From: Candidatus Mcinerneyibacteriota bacterium
GTDB lineage: Bacteria > AUK180 > JAQVHJ01
Assembly (NCBI GenBank): GCA_030630935.1
Contig: DAOVMD010000257.1
Span: 1 to 5,132 of the forward strand
Length of the DNA: 5,132 nt
Direction: 5' to 3'
Below the pieces are notes generated by a model. The model was not told the origin of the DNA and ran no database searches. It saw nothing but the letters and a program-made list of their open reading frames with translations. Of this stretch, positions 180-5,132 are shown piece after piece (within the stretch, counting starts at the first letter, position 1; every line of letters starts with the position of its first letter). A program made the position numbers and the translations under genes.

Positions 180-977
180 ATGAATCAAAGATATTTGAAT
201 CCAGAGAAATTTCAAGAATCTATTACAAAGGAGTTAAATGTAGTAAGTAATAGAGTTAGAAATCTTATTGGTGATGCAAACTGGGGAGATGAAGGCAGAT
301 ATAAAGAGGCAGTACTTAAGAATGTAATAAGAAGATTTTTACCCTCAAACTTATCAATAGGCTCAGGTTTTATAGTTAGAAGTAGAGATAGTAGTAATAA
401 CATTAGCATTTCAAAGCAAATAGATATAATAATCTATGAAAATACAATCCCTGTTTTATTTTCAGAGGGTGATTTGATTATTACTACCAATGAAAATGTA
501 AAAGCTATTATCGAAGTAAAAACAAAAATTTATAATAATCAGTTCGAAAAGATTCTAAATACCACAATAGAAAATGCAAAATTTATGGAAGATTTTAATA
601 AATTTAATGGTGTATTTTCTTTTGAACCTGAAACTGAAGATCTTGATCTACAAATTAATAAAATAAAAGAAGTCTTAAAAATATTGGGAGAAGATGGAAA
701 ATATATTAATCATATTTCTATAGGACCATATATTTTTATAAAATACTGGAAAAAAGACGAAAACATGTGTAATAATTACAACTCGCATTTTGGTTGTTAT
801 GGTATTTATAAGTTTAGAAATAATAATGAATCAAAGCAATTATCTTTTTCATACTTTATCTCAAATCTTCTATATTTATTAACAAATAAAAGACTTAATA
901 AGAGATTATGGTATTTATTTCCAATAAAAGGAGGAAAGGAACAATATCGTTTTGAAACGGTATTTCTAAAGGAATAA
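180..977 (+). CDS. DUF6602-like PD-(D/E)XK nuclease-fold protein
   Basis: A 265-residue soluble protein. Its first half matches the DUF6602 pattern as I remember it: a tryptophan-glycine-glutamate stretch (WGDEGRYKEAVL, residues 35-46), a conserved LPSNLSIGSGF segment (54-64), then QIDIIIYE (80-87) and AIIEVKTK (109-116). These fit a PD-(D/E)XK nuclease core: Glu43 on the first helix, Asp82 on the central strand and Glu112-x-Lys114 on the next strand, with Gln80 ahead of the Asp. No helicase, methylase or specificity domain is fused to it. The C-terminal half (about 140-265) is less conserved, with no membrane helix or signal peptide. The family is uncharacterised but often annotated near restriction or defence genes, so a nuclease role is inference. 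The gene uses mostly AT-ending codons and AGA for Arg, and is more AT-rich than the ABC gene in the opposing operon, which hints at separate acquisition. The start is supported by the SD at 168-174. Confidence 0.75.
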   Translation: MNQRYLNPEKFQESITKELNVVSNRVRNLIGDANWGDEGRYKEAVLKNVIRRFLPSNLSIGSGFIVRSRDSSNNISISKQIDIIIYENTIPVLFSEGDLIITTNENVKAIIEVKTKIYNNQFEKILNTTIENAKFMEDFNKFNGVFSFEPETEDLDLQINKIKEVLKILGEDGKYINHISIGPYIFIKYWKKDENMCNNYNSHFGCYGIYKFRNNNESKQLSFSYFISNLLYLLTNKRLNKRLWYLFPIKGGKEQYRFETVFLKE

Positions 978-1184: not shown

Positions 1185-2381
1185 TTATAATATCTTTAAC
1201 ATCTCTTCAAGGATATCAAGATTCGAATTAAATTGCAGAAGTTTAAAGAATGTTTTAAGGTAGGTATTTTTATTAGAAGTTTTATTGATTATAGATTGTA
1301 CTTTTAAAGATCCTGAGAATAGAGAGAAATAGTATAAAAAGTTAGAGAAGTCTGGGGTCTGATTTTGATTAAAATTAAAAATCAACCCGGGGTTTTCAGT
1401 AATCTGTATTATTTCCTTTTTAATATTCAAGTCTGCCTCAAAAACCTTTTTAATTTTTAAATATTCAAAGTATGCTTTTAATGTATAAAAGGATAATTGA
1501 GAATTCAATAAATTATTTAGATAATCAAGGTCTTTATTTGTCACCTTTAATTCCTTTTTATATTCCTTAACGAAATCTAAAGCCAACCTTGATGCAGCGT
1601 TTGCAATTCCTTCTGAGACAGGTTTATTAAAAAATTGAACTCCCGGTTTGAAATCAGCATTAAAACAACCTGGCATCTCTCTTGAATAGAATCCGTTTAA
1701 AGCATGCCCAAAATATTCATGGAAAATAGTAGGCAGTATCAATATCCAGTTATAAGATATCTTATTCTTCTTCAAAAATACTAAGACAAAATTAATATCA
1801 ATATTAATCATCTGCAATCCCGGGTTATAATTTGACCCGACATTGTATTGTATCAAATCAACGGTAATATTAAACCCCGATGGGATTAACTTTTGTTTGA
1901 AGCCCCAGTCAATGATCATTGGTTTGATCTTTTTAAATTCTTCCTTCAGGTTGCAATAAATATTATCATTAAGTTCATGTAACCGGTTATATGAATATTG
2001 AGTTTCAAGTGAATAATATTTCCAGAGCTGCTTATAATCCATGTTCCTCAGGTAAAGTTCCAGGTTCTTTAAAGAATCATTGCCGAATAAAACTTTACAA
2101 AAATCATCAATTGAGAAATTCTTATAATTAAATTGAAAATCACCTCTTGCTTGACAAGCTTGTAATCCTCGTGAAATTTGCTTCAAAATTAATGCTTCAA
2201 ATTTCGAACCCGGTTTAGTTTTTTTTATACTTTTTTGTAACCTGGAAATATCGTTTGATATAAGATTATAACCATAAGTGTTTGGAAATTCTTTATTGGT
2301 CTTTTGAAATATTTCAAATTTTTCAAGGAATTTATTATACTCTAAGAGTATCTTAGTAATGTTTTTATTGATTTTTTTCAT
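1185..2381 (-). CDS. Putative gluzincin-like zinc metallopeptidase with HEXXXH motif
   Basis: A 398-residue protein, last gene of the operon. Residues 221-226 are HEYFGH, followed by ALNG, on a helix preceded by a hydrophobic stretch (WILILPTIF). This is HEXXXH, one residue longer than classic HEXXH. The likely third zinc ligand is Glu257 in VSEGIANAAS, 31 residues downstream. HEXXXH occurs in DPP III (M49, HEXXGH) and in DUF1704/MATCAP-type tyrosine carboxypeptidases. In the latter the third ligand sits in an EEGLA-like motif, so spacing and motif favour the DUF1704-like comparison. The Lys-rich N-terminal half is helical in character. There is no signal peptide or membrane segment, so it should act in the cytoplasm. 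I choose ATG at 2381 over the in-frame GTG at 2435. The ATG overlaps the preceding stop by 17 bp and has GGAAG just before it, whereas the GTG would force a 71-bp overlap. Next to an exporter without a peptidase domain, trimming of the exported peptide is a reasonable inference. The substrate is unknown. Confidence 0.7.
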   Translation of the reverse strand: MKKINKNITKILLEYNKFLEKFEIFQKTNKEFPNTYGYNLISNDISRLQKSIKKTKPGSKFEALILKQISRGLQACQARGDFQFNYKNFSIDDFCKVLFGNDSLKNLELYLRNMDYKQLWKYYSLETQYSYNRLHELNDNIYCNLKEEFKKIKPMIIDWGFKQKLIPSGFNITVDLIQYNVGSNYNPGLQMINIDINFVLVFLKKNKISYNWILILPTIFHEYFGHALNGFYSREMPGCFNADFKPGVQFFNKPVSEGIANAASRLALDFVKEYKKELKVTNKDLDYLNNLLNSQLSFYTLKAYFEYLKIKKVFEADLNIKKEIIQITENPGLIFNFNQNQTPDFSNFLYYFSLFSGSLKVQSIINKTSNKNTYLKTFFKLLQFNSNLDILEEMLKIL

Positions 2382-2715
2382 ATTCTTCCAGGGTTTTAAG
2401 TAAAAATTTAATATTTTTATTAATAGATTTTCCACTCATTGAAACAGTAATTGAAATCACTTCAAATATTTCCTGTTTTGTCGCGCCATTTTCAAGTGCT
2501 GAGATAAGGTGTGTTTTTACGCATGAATCACAATCTTGAAGCAGTCCCATGGCAATCCTGATAAATTCCATATATTTATATGAGAAGACTCGTTCATCTC
2601 TTTTCCGGGACCAGAATTTCTTGAAATGTTCAGCAAAATCTGGATATTCTTCCCGGAAGGAGTTTACAAATGCTTCCGATGCCCTTTGTTTTTGTAGGTC
2701 TTTATTATTTTCCAT
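2365..2715 (-). CDS. AhpD-like / carboxymuconolactone decarboxylase-family thiol protein
   Basis: A 116-residue, mostly helical protein of typical single-domain CMD/AhpD-fold length. The active-site pattern is complete: Glu50, then Cys62-Asp-Ser-Cys65, then His69. The spacing is 12, 3 and 4 residues, the same as Glu118/Cys130/Cys133/His137 of mycobacterial AhpD. A thiol-redox or peroxidase-type activity is therefore plausible, rather than the lactone decarboxylation of the name-giving branch, which lacks the cysteine pair. After the motif come ISALENGATKQEIFEVIS and a C-terminal helix, as usual for the family. It is cytoplasmic, with no signal. Its ATG overlaps the end of the adaptor gene by 11 bp and its own end overlaps the protease start, so it is fully embedded in the operon. 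Its partner is not evident: no AhpC or peroxiredoxin lies nearby. It may keep a cysteine-containing substrate reduced or oxidise it, but this is inference. Confidence 0.85.
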   Translation of the reverse strand: MENNKDLQKQRASEAFVNSFREEYPDFAEHFKKFWSRKRDERVFSYKYMEFIRIAMGLLQDCDSCVKTHLISALENGATKQEIFEVISITVSMSGKSINKNIKFLLKTLEEYEKNQ

Positions 2716-3220
2716 CTTTAATCTTTGTCTTTTTAAAGAAATTATTTAATATAAAATATATGATATAATCTTCATATATTATGATCTTCACCTTTGCAGT
2801 TAATCCCGGGCGTATAATTCCCTCTTTAATATATTTATCGAATTTATCATCTGTAATTTTCACAGAGCCTTTATAATATGTTAGCTTAGAAGAATTATCC
2901 TGAATAGGTAAGTTTGAGATTTCTATAAGTTCCCCAGAAAAGATGTCAAATTCAATATATGGTAATGCAGTTATAAAGATTTTTGTTTCCATTCCGACTT
3001 TAACCCGAGTAAGTTTAGTCTCCGGGACATTAATTTCAACTACCCATTCGGATTGGGTTTCTTGAAGTACAAGCTTACCTTGAAAGTCTATGGACTCGGA
3101 AGTTTTGAAGAAAAATGATAGTACGAAAAGAATTACAACTAAAGAAATAATAACTAAAATAAATGACCTTAGCAATTTCTCTGTATAGAAGAAGAATTTA
3201 TCGTTCTTATCTTTTTTCAT
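2705..3220 (-). CDS. Minimal HlyD-like membrane-fusion (adaptor) protein
   Basis: A 171-residue protein: a short charged cytoplasmic tail with 6 Lys in the first 15 residues, one membrane helix (about 18-38), then an extracytoplasmic beta-rich domain. Residues 60-150 match the end part of HlyD-type adaptors: VVEINVPETKLTRVKVGMET (59-78, strand-turn-strand with KVG), LPYIEFDIFSGELIEIS (86-102) and the closing IIRPGLTAKVKIIIYE (135-150), equivalent to the LRPGM segment. The lipoyl domain and the coiled-coil hairpin, normally between helix and barrel, are absent; the family is usually about 350-450 residues. It probably docks on the ABC exporter encoded just upstream, whose TAA is followed directly by this ATG (zero spacing). 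Without a hairpin it is unlikely to reach a TolC-type channel. I see no broken remnants of the missing part, so this looks like a compact adaptor rather than a pseudogene, though an internal deletion is possible. Confidence 0.75.
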   Translation of the reverse strand: MKKDKNDKFFFYTEKLLRSFILVIISLVVILFVLSFFFKTSESIDFQGKLVLQETQSEWVVEINVPETKLTRVKVGMETKIFITALPYIEFDIFSGELIEISNLPIQDNSSKLTYYKGSVKITDDKFDKYIKEGIIRPGLTAKVKIIIYEDYIIYFILNNFFKKTKIKDGK

Positions 3221-4942
3221 TTAATACACCGTTAATCTATTATATAAATTTTTATAAACCTTAGACGAACTCATTAGTTCTTCATGTTTTCCCTGCTCAA
3301 CAATCCCGCCTTTTTCAACTACAAAGATTGTATCAGCATCTTTAATTGTTGAGAGCCGGTGAGCAATTATCAATGTTGTCCGATTTTTCCTAAGTTCTTT
3401 TAATGCTTCCTGTATGAACTGTTCAGATTCTAAGTCCAGGGAAGATGTCCCTTCATCAATAATTAGAATAGGAGGTTTCATAAACAGGATTCTTGCAAGC
3501 GCCACCCTTTGTTTTTGTCCCTGGGATAATCTTGAACCTCTTTCCCCGATAATAGTATTAAGGCCTTCCGGGAGTTTCTCAATAAACTCATCAACGTGTG
3601 CAGCTTTTGTTGCCTGGTTAAGCAGATCCGCACTATAATTTTCTCTTCCGAGTGTAATATTATCAAGGACTGTTCCGTAGAACAAGAATGGATCCTGCAT
3701 TACAATACCTATCTTCTCTCTCAAGGAATCAACTTTAATATCTTTAATATTGAAATTGTCAATCTTAACGATTCCCGAAATCGGGTCATAGAATCTTGGA
3801 ATGAGACAGGCAATGGTAGTTTTGCCTACACCGCTCTTTCCTACTAATGCAGCAGTTGTACCTGCAGGAATCTTTAAATTTATATTTTGGAGAATAAAAT
3901 TCTCCTTGTCATAACTGAAAAACACATCTTTAAATTCAATGTCACCCTTAATGTCATCCGGGAGGTCCTGAGCATTTGGAGCATCAGCAATCTGGGAAGG
4001 AATATCATAAATTTCAAAAAATCTATTCGTATGAACAAGTGTAATCTGGATATCCTGAGTTAACGTTATCATCTCCCGGATAGGGTTGTAAAGATACCCG
4101 ACAAACATGGTGAATGCAAGATATTTTCCCAGGGATAAGTCGCCTGATAAAATATGTGACCAACCATACCACATATAAAGAAAGATACTAATTGACCTGA
4201 AAAATTGGAGAATAAAGAACGCTCCATTCTGAATGAAACCCGATTGGACTTTTAATTTGAATAATTCATTATAAAGATTTTTTATCCTGATCTTTATTCT
4301 CTCTTCAATCTTTAATGACTGAACAGTCTTAATTCCTGACAGGGATTCGTAATTCTTTGCGGCGACTTCCGCACCTTTTTCTGCTGCTGCTTTTGTATAT
4401 TTCCGTACAAGCTTATTTGTATATGAATAAAGAATTGCGTCTAAAGGCAGGAGACATATCGCGATTAAAGCTAAAACGGGGTGTATTAAGAAAATAATTA
4501 CAGGAAAAACTATTAATGAAAGAATATTCATTATAATCCGATTAATAAGATCAGTAATTCTATAGATGGATTCACCGGCATCCCTGAATCTTGAAATGAT
4601 CTCCCCAACCTCTCGGGAATCATAGAAGTTAAATGATAAATTTAAAAGATGTGAGAAAAACCGTAACTGAACATCGATCCACATCTTTAAACCCATATTA
4701 AACATGAAGAAATTTCTCAGGAACGAAAACAACGCCCCGGTTATTGCGAATAATAAAATCGAAATAATAATGAAGAGCATAAGGTCGGTATTCTGCTCAG
4801 GATAAACCTTATCAACTAAAATCCGGGTTAACCATGGAATCGGGAGAGAAAATAATGTGACAATTATCCCCGCGATAATCGACTCCGCAACATAACCCCA
4901 ATAATGCTTAACTAACTTTGCAAATCTAAATAATTCTTTCAT
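3221..4942 (-). CDS. ABC exporter, fused membrane and ATPase domains (ABCB/peptide-export type)
   Basis: A 573-residue half-transporter that should act as a homodimer in the inner membrane. Six membrane helices are visible at about 18-38, 52-75, 134-155, 156-175, 236-260 and 272-288. The ATPase domain has all its motifs: A-loop Tyr344, Walker A GKSGVGKT (368-375), Q-loop Gln416 in MQDPF, signature LSQGQ (472-476), Walker B ILIIDE (492-497, catalytic Glu497), D-loop SSLD (500-503) and switch His528. There is no N-terminal C39 peptidase domain, so any leader removal must be done by another protein; the operon encodes a metallopeptidase. I place the start at ATG 4942. The longer frame opening at TTG 4978 begins inside a perfect -35 box and has no ribosome site. 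The protein from Met4942 opens with MKELFRFAKLVKHYW, a normal exporter N-terminus. The sequence alone does not decide between lipid, drug and peptide substrates; the adaptor and protease neighbours favour a peptide. Confidence 0.92.
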   Translation of the reverse strand: MKELFRFAKLVKHYWGYVAESIIAGIIVTLFSLPIPWLTRILVDKVYPEQNTDLMLFIIISILLFAITGALFSFLRNFFMFNMGLKMWIDVQLRFFSHLLNLSFNFYDSREVGEIISRFRDAGESIYRITDLINRIIMNILSLIVFPVIIFLIHPVLALIAICLLPLDAILYSYTNKLVRKYTKAAAEKGAEVAAKNYESLSGIKTVQSLKIEERIKIRIKNLYNELFKLKVQSGFIQNGAFFILQFFRSISIFLYMWYGWSHILSGDLSLGKYLAFTMFVGYLYNPIREMITLTQDIQITLVHTNRFFEIYDIPSQIADAPNAQDLPDDIKGDIEFKDVFFSYDKENFILQNINLKIPAGTTAALVGKSGVGKTTIACLIPRFYDPISGIVKIDNFNIKDIKVDSLREKIGIVMQDPFLFYGTVLDNITLGRENYSADLLNQATKAAHVDEFIEKLPEGLNTIIGERGSRLSQGQKQRVALARILFMKPPILIIDEGTSSLDLESEQFIQEALKELRKNRTTLIIAHRLSTIKDADTIFVVEKGGIVEQGKHEELMSSSKVYKNLYNRLTVY

Positions 4943-4949
4943 ATAAAAT

Positions 4950-4978
4950 ATTTTAATATATTTAGACGGATTTGTCAA
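4950..4978 (-). promoter_or_regulatory. Promoter of the four-gene operon
   Basis: On the minus strand TTGACA (4978-4973) is followed after exactly 17 bp by TAAAAT (4955-4950), one mismatch from TATAAT. The start of transcription would be near 4943, immediately before the ABC gene ATG at 4942. The mRNA would thus be leaderless or nearly so, which agrees with the lack of any Shine-Dalgarno before this ATG. Confidence 0.75.
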
Positions 4979-5010
4979 GGAAAAAAAAGTTCATGATGTT
5001 ACAATATGAA

Positions 5011-5045
5011 AATGTTAACATTAATTACTAAATAGAAATGTTAAC
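5011..5045. repeat. AATGTTAAC repeat pair and palindrome, candidate operator
   Basis: AATGTTAACATT (5011-5022) is a perfect 12-bp palindrome. AATGTTAAC recurs at 5037-5045, with 26 bp between the copies. The second half of the palindrome (TTAACATT) can also pair with AATGTTAA at 5037-5044, across 14 bp. A further TTAACAT lies at 5068-5074. The block sits between two divergent promoters, about 70-100 bp upstream of the operon start, where a regulator could act on both. AT-richness makes partial matches less surprising, but the perfect copies are notable. Confidence 0.4.
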
Positions 5046-5052
5046 TTTTTAC

Positions 5053-5082
5053 TTGCTTACTAATCTTTTAACATGATATAAT
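5053..5082 (+). promoter_or_regulatory. Divergent plus-strand promoter with extended -10
   Basis: TTGCTT (5053-5058) and TATAAT (5077-5082) are 18 bp apart, with TG at 5074-5075 giving the extended TGnTATAAT element. Transcription would start near 5089 and run out of the window at the right edge. It would carry a 5' leader of a little over 40 bases, including the strong ribosome site at 5118-5128. Confidence 0.65.
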
Positions 5083-5132
5083 TCACCTCCGAAGTGAGGG
5101 AGCGGGAGCGACCGAACAAAGGAGGTGAATTA
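5079..5132. repeat. Perfect 12-bp inverted repeat enclosing a G-rich 30-nt loop
   Basis: TAATTCACCTCC (5079-5090) is the exact reverse complement of GGAGGTGAATTA (5121-5132). The repeat ends exactly at the window edge, so it may continue. The left arm contains most of the -10 box; the right arm contains the Shine-Dalgarno of the gene beyond the edge. The loop holds GGGAGC twice in tandem (5098-5109). It could be an RNA hairpin hiding the ribosome site in read-through transcripts, a protein-binding palindrome, or the edge of a repeated element. There is no T-tract in view to call it a terminator. Confidence 0.6.
5118..5128 (+). promoter_or_regulatory. Strong Shine-Dalgarno of a gene starting beyond the right edge
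   Basis: AAAGGAGGTGA is a full match to the 16S rRNA anti-Shine-Dalgarno and ends 4 bp before the window edge. A start codon would be expected within a few bases outside. With the plus-strand promoter at 5053-5082 it defines a divergent gene facing away from the exporter operon. It is the strongest ribosome site in the window, as expected for a highly made product such as a small peptide; this is inference. Confidence 0.6.

Follow-up and report, generated by a model that had tools for sequence, protein, structure and literature searches.

The four-gene operon

The window, the whole stretch of 5,132 nucleotides analysed here, is the complete contig C192 (DAOVMD010000257.1) of G000, a fragmented, 80 % complete genome of a Candidatus Mcinerneyibacteriota bacterium (GCA_030630935.1). 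It carries four consecutive minus-strand genes, encoding in order an ATP-binding cassette (ABC) exporter, a HlyD-type mini-adaptor, an AhpD/CMD thiol protein and an HExxGH protease. The features of this operon are as follows.

4950..4978, minus strand: sigma70-type promoter, TTGACA-N17-TAAAAT (TTGACA 4973-4978, TAAAAT 4950-4955)
3221..4942, minus strand: ABC exporter, 573 aa, membrane domain fused to ATPase (Pfam PF00664/PF00005)
2705..3220, minus strand: HlyD-type mini-adaptor, 171 aa, one transmembrane helix and a C-terminal barrel region (TIGR01843 match)
2365..2715, minus strand: AhpD/CMD protein, 116 aa (Pfam PF02627, E 1e-11)
1185..2381, minus strand: orphan HExxGH...SEG gluzincin-type protease, 398 aa (motif HEYFGHAL at 1698-1721)

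The original prediction, made from the sequence without database searches, had placed the four genes end to end behind a single promoter, and both points hold. The exporter and adaptor genes meet at TAA|ATG, the adaptor and CMD genes overlap by 11 bp (2705-2715), and the CMD and protease genes overlap by 17 bp (2365-2381), provided that translation of the protease begins with the ATG at 2381. In an alignment, this start fits the protein starts of the relatives better than does the longer open reading frame (ORF) beginning with GTG at 2435. As just 7 nt separate the promoter from the start codon of the exporter gene, the operon mRNA would be nearly leaderless.

The descriptions of the individual proteins in the original prediction were also borne out. 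No C39 peptidase domain is present in the exporter, where the membrane domain recognized by Pfam already begins at residue 21. The adaptor is reduced to its barrel, matching only the C-terminal region of TIGR01843 (residues 58-163, 55 bits), and the lipoyl and coiled-coil parts are missing. The third protein is of the AhpD type, with the CxxCxxxH motif (C62, C65 and H69) invariant in the aligned relatives, and its best relative with a solved structure is AhpD (5dik, E 5e-11). The separate metallopeptidase, predicted from an HExxxH motif, has the HExxGH...SEG motif and belongs to no sequence family in Pfam, NCBIfam or the PDB sequences.

Seven genomes of the phylum (G000 to G006) were compared. 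G002 and G003 belong to the same class as G000 and to one genus, and G001 (72 % complete) is from the same family. The complete operon, with the gene order retained, was found in G003 (contig C2) and G002 (contig C99). As the four genes, their order and their tight joins recur in two further genomes, the arrangement is not due to chance. Relative to the G002 and G003 counterparts, the window proteins are 63 % (exporter), 28-30 % (adaptor), 33-35 % (CMD protein) and 34-35 % (protease) identical. G001 has the exporter, adaptor and CMD genes; the protease gene was found neither beside its CMD gene nor elsewhere in that incomplete genome. The adaptor is 302 aa in G001, with lipoyl and HlyD domains, 227 aa in the other relatives and 171 aa in the window, and so seems, on comparison of these sequences, to have been reduced stepwise. 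The phylum is diderm, with Omp85 found in 7/7 genomes.

In the protease, the motifs HExFGHALNG and SEGIA are invariant among the three aligned sequences (window, G002 and G003). The HExxH and downstream Glu that characterize gluzincins (clan MA) are thus found in all three, in HExFGH and SEG. No signal peptide was seen. No match was found in Pfam, NCBIfam, PADLOC or the PDB sequences, and the only match in PHROGs was at chance level (E 0.24). AlphaFold models were weak (pLDDT 57 and 47). The low-confidence model with pLDDT 57 resembles DUF885, M32 and M3 peptidases, with VIA-align Z scores of 6-8 over 188-243 residues to 3iuk, 3o0y, 3u24, 1k9x and 2h1j; Foldseek with the model gave nothing below E 0.001, only chance matches. 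A profile search of 386 sampled genomes found no convincing relative beyond the phylum, the one borderline match having an E value of 0.0096, and within this sample the family is apparently restricted to the phylum.

Precursor peptides and modifying enzymes

A six-frame motif scan of the window found no precursor-like sequence. However, the original prediction had proposed that a peptide, possibly containing Cys, is encoded nearby, and in G003 a Cys-rich ORF lies about 110 bp from the 3' end of the operon, on the opposite strand, and is truncated there as the contig ends. A search of the phylum genomes with this ORF revealed a family of small proteins, often in tandem copies, with three in tandem in G000 (contig C275), two in G002 (C102), two in G003 (C3) and one in G001 (C14). 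In G001, some 240 bp separate the copy from the CMD gene of the exporter operon. Hence, the proposal stands for two relatives, G003 and G001, in which a Cys-rich precursor lies beside the operon, but not for G000, where the copies are on another contig. The precursors share the leader MK[FY]IxTPExKK and a core, CALCSEDPxFC, that is single or doubled, and more Cys residues are found in Gly/Asn-rich linkers. In G000, a gene some 1.6 kb away from the three precursor copies (L096:6111-6806) encodes another HExxH...E protein (THEMAHRFH, FFEGFAIH), for which a weak SprT-like match was the only one.

The modifying enzymes are encoded outside the window. In G002 (C102) and G003 (C3), the precursors adjoin a three-gene operon encoding an ATP-grasp-like protein, a radical S-adenosylmethionine (SAM)/SPASM enzyme and a RimK-like ATP-grasp protein. 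The radical SAM enzyme and the second ATP-grasp protein are also encoded in G000 (C320) and G001 (C351). The radical SAM enzyme (Pfam PF04055) has conserved CxxxCxxC and C-terminal SPASM Cys motifs, and a radical SAM enzyme with SPASM cysteines is one mark of ranthipeptide and sactipeptide systems. Its best NCBIfam model is that for the Clo7bot maturase, TIGR04334, although the score of 361 bits does not reach the cut-off of 600 bits. Its best relative with a solved structure is 5wgg, the thioether maturase CteB. Among solved structures, the second ATP-grasp protein matches 7drm, the graspetide ligase PsnB, best (E 1e-35), and CdnC and AMdnB were also matched; the score for TIGR04187 was 79 bits, below the cut-off of 350. 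A graspetide-type ligase encoded with a precursor, one mark of graspetide loci, is therefore seen in G002 and G003, where the two adjoin. In the first ATP-grasp-like protein (L109:4063-4584 and L097:5432-6352), the ATP-grasp relationship is only weakly visible and PSPD replaces ExNSSP. As the usual E-x-N metal site is lost, this protein may be catalytically dead, and judging from its sequence it may be a substrate-binding partner.

The nearest relatives of the radical SAM enzyme outside the phylum (44 % identity; G272, G142 and six more) have no adjoining ATP-grasp, adaptor, CMD or protease gene, and the annotation of archaeal plasmids carrying ATP-grasp relatives shows no radical SAM neighbour. 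In a further genome (G025, contig C19), a 34-aa ORF, MRWVVKPGLRIGPNGGCDVNCGSNSGCVQNQKLW, directly follows a gene for a Clo7bot-like radical SAM enzyme (L143:9004-9123). It shows the leader pattern too and is possibly a precursor that has escaped annotation.

The adaptor, precursor and radical SAM enzyme are all present in 4/7 phylum genomes (G000 to G003), three of which also have the protease. The adaptor, precursor and protease are absent from G004, G005 and G006, and the radical SAM enzyme is absent or only remotely matched there. No direct overlap of contigs C2 and C3 of G003 was found. However, the precursor that ends C2 corresponds to the last one in C102 of G002, which is itself contiguous with the maturase operon, and the adjoining terminator is also shared. 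Based on this contig-end synteny, C2 and C3 are most likely joined via tandem precursors, and the exporter operon, precursors and maturases most likely form a single cluster in G003. Conserved linkage of the genes (in three relatives) and a shared short ORF (the Cys-rich precursor family), the two signs of a peptide system named in the original prediction, were thus both found, supporting maturation and export of a Cys-containing peptide by the operon.

Relationship to known peptide systems

The closest resemblance is to Clo7bot (TIGR04333 precursors, TIGR04334 radical SAM enzyme CtpM), a name that occurs in none of the papers searched. An annotated Clo7bot cluster, on the Paraclostridium bifermentans plasmid NZ_CP094934.1, was used for comparison. 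It includes nine tandem genes for Cys-rich small proteins (MKFIKKPARKFEEGYC...), 7/9 of which are annotated as Clo7bot peptides, together with the radical SAM gene ctpM, a gene for an ABC exporter lacking C39 and, between these, a gene for a 206-aa protein that has HEFIH and NEG motifs and is like Peptidase_MA_2. The phylum system shares tandem small Cys-rich precursors with the leader start MK[FY]IxxPx[RK]K, a homologous radical SAM/SPASM enzyme (about 39 % identity), a separate HExxH peptidase and an ABC exporter without C39. The leader start common to the phylum precursors and the Clo7bot MKFIKKP peptides was aligned by hhalign over 17 columns (P 8e-5). Across 19 loci of these systems, the pattern M[KR][FYLW][IVL]xxP with three or more Cys after it gave 16 hits; 16 other phylum loci gave none, and 3.2 Mb of shuffled sequence gave two.

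However, the phylum system differs from Clo7bot in having CALCSEDPxFC cores, a diderm host and exporter genes in their own operon. Relative to Clo7bot, the pair of ATP-grasp proteins (graspetide-type), the reduced HlyD-type adaptor, the AhpD/CMD protein and the unrelated protease family are new. The precursors score at most 9.6 bits with TIGR04333, in the leader region, and do not reach the cut-off of 31 bits. Judged on sequence, the phylum system therefore follows a Clo7bot-like plan, as a radical SAM and ATP-grasp system for a ribosomally synthesized and post-translationally modified peptide (RiPP), and falls below the curated cut-offs for Clo7bot membership. The original prediction had recognized no described system in this gene combination; that view needs revision, given the resemblance to Clo7bot.

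Graspetides, including the Bacteroidetes grasp-with-SPASM type (TIGR04192/TIGR04193), are alike in having a RimK-like graspetide-type ligase beside a SPASM enzyme and a precursor. Graspetide loci with ATP-grasp, SPASM and HlyD proteins are known, the HlyD family is often present, and zincin peptidases have been reported in some loci from the candidate phyla radiation (PMC8939145). However, the phylum ATP-grasp protein is far below the TIGR04192 and TIGR04187 cut-offs, there is no C39, and the precursors and radical SAM enzyme are of the Clo7bot type. AhpD is not mentioned in that survey (PMC8939145), and none of the papers searched treats AhpD together with RiPPs, their precursor peptides and an ABC transporter. 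Maturases of the TIGR04463/CefB/PapB type (ranthipeptide) belong to the same radical SAM/SPASM superfamily and act on Cys-rich substrates, but the phylum enzyme scores lower with these than with Clo7bot, and the precursors and neighbouring genes differ.

Type I secretion (HlyB-HlyD-TolC) and the C39 exporters (peptidase-containing ABC transporters) also use an ABC protein and a HlyD-family protein for peptide export. However, the window exporter has no C39 or C39-like domain, and the TolC-contacting coiled coil is absent from the adaptor in 3/4 genomes, only that of G001 (302 aa) being fuller.

Proposed role, alternatives and genomic setting

Given the gene conservation, precursor-operon adjacency, phyletic co-occurrence and family assignments observed, we are confident that the operon serves a RiPP system of the Clo7bot type, as the part responsible for processing and export. 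The precursors, made elsewhere in the genome, would first be modified by the radical SAM/SPASM enzyme, which would form thioether cross-links from Cys residues. The graspetide-type ligase, with its degenerate ATP-grasp-like partner, would add ester or amide links, probably between the conserved Thr, Ser or Lys and the Glu or Asp of the TLCALCSEDP block. The CMD/AhpD protein, via its CxxC, would keep free thiols reduced or resolve wrong disulfides. As an exporter lacking C39 cannot remove the leader, this would fall to a separate protease, and the cytoplasmic HExxGH protease is proposed as the leader peptidase of the system. The ABC protein and the barrel-only HlyD adaptor would then carry the product, which could be a bacteriocin, a signal or a metal binder, through the inner membrane of the diderm host. 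Metalloproteases are well established as RiPP leader peptidases (PMC10885120).

More tentatively, and with somewhat less than even confidence, we suggest that the system represents a new class of RiPP. A single Cys-rich precursor would carry two kinds of cross-link, thioethers made by a Clo7bot-like radical SAM/SPASM enzyme and ester or amide bonds made by a graspetide ligase. Immediately before export by an ABC protein and a coil-less HlyD adaptor, a dedicated thiol protein of the AhpD type and a cytoplasmic leader peptidase from a new gluzincin family would come into play.

As the processing and export arm of a Clo7bot-type system, the anonymous four-gene operon becomes part of a concrete peptide system in an uncultured phylum, for which the precursor family, the modifying enzymes and the exporter can be named. 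Radical SAM and ATP-grasp chemistry would meet on a single precursor of the Clo7bot type, which has hardly been studied. The HExxGH protease is a candidate, from its sequence, for a new leader-peptidase family, and, as far as the searched literature shows, a thiol protein of the AhpD type would here be linked with the export of a RiPP for the first time.

Several observations weigh against assigning the operon to a Clo7bot-type system. The protease is not universal, as G001 shows none, its fold model is poor (pLDDT 57), and its sequence is not similar to that of the Clo7bot peptidase. The co-occurrence amounts to few independent events, as only seven genomes were available and G002 and G003 are near relatives. 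In G000, precursors, maturases and exporter are on three separate contigs, and linkage was not seen there.

The alternative that survives best, though we consider it less likely than not, retains precursor export but has the HExxGH protease degrade leaders or misfolded precursors, or trim the N-terminus after another enzyme's cut. This would accommodate G001, with exporter, CMD protein and precursor but no protease beside them, and the second HExxH protein near the G000 precursors, and two-step proteolysis is known in RiPPs (PMC10885120). However, gene overlap indicates that the protease is co-transcribed with the exporter in 3/4 genomes, and Clo7bot too has a separate HExxH peptidase, between the radical SAM and ABC genes. 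Far less probable is an MsbA-like lipid or drug flippase, with the small downstream proteins as unrelated housekeeping genes. The best NCBIfam scores of the exporter are for MsbA_rel (405 bits) and MsbA (403 bits), but that for HlyB (400 bits) is about level and all are under the cut-offs. Moreover, the HlyD-type adaptor, thiol protein and protease are conserved in tight overlap, a Cys-rich precursor adjoins the operon in two genomes, and the maturases occur in the same four genomes. Export of lipoproteins of about 255-295 aa with Cys-rich tails, paired with CPBP membrane proteases, is the least credible and largely refuted. The family is multi-copy, and in G002 (C99) a lipoprotein-protease pair is encoded next to the operon in divergent orientation, but G005 and G006 have the family without the operon, and G000 and G003 have the operon without the family. 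The lipoproteins also have their own Sec/lipobox N-terminus.

This pair was dropped as a candidate substrate, its distribution differing from that of the operon. The multi-copy lipoproteins, with Cys-rich C-terminal tails, were seen at L005:5089-6766 (G002, C99) and in L049, L051, L052, L047 and L048, and in several cases (G002, G005) the gene directly precedes that for a CPBP (Rce1-like) protease.

Two further features of the window are the following.

4994..5132, minus strand: dispersed repeat of G000, its edge 15 bp upstream of the -35 box; part of the promoter-side context and not peptide-specific
180..977, plus strand: DUF6602 protein, with PADLOC matches to PD-(D/E)XK/NucC-like nucleases (E 1e-10 to 1e-21)

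The sequence farther upstream of the promoter cannot be read, as the contig ends inside the repeat. Other copies are on G000 contigs C459, C246, C195, C94, C38, C78, C438, C109, C233 and C323 (L033-L043), that on C438 being a 72-bp palindrome between two divergent promoters. In 13/13 copies seen (12 independent), a TTGACA box lies downstream of the edge at a distance of exactly 15-16 bp, against a background TTGACA rate of 3.7e-4 per base. Most copies have a good -10 box at N16-17 after TTGACA, and the downstream promoters and genes are unrelated. The repeat is either an upstream activator block that has been copied widely or a mobile element whose target sites lie immediately upstream of sigma70 promoters. 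The DUF6602 protein is possibly a defence effector nuclease.

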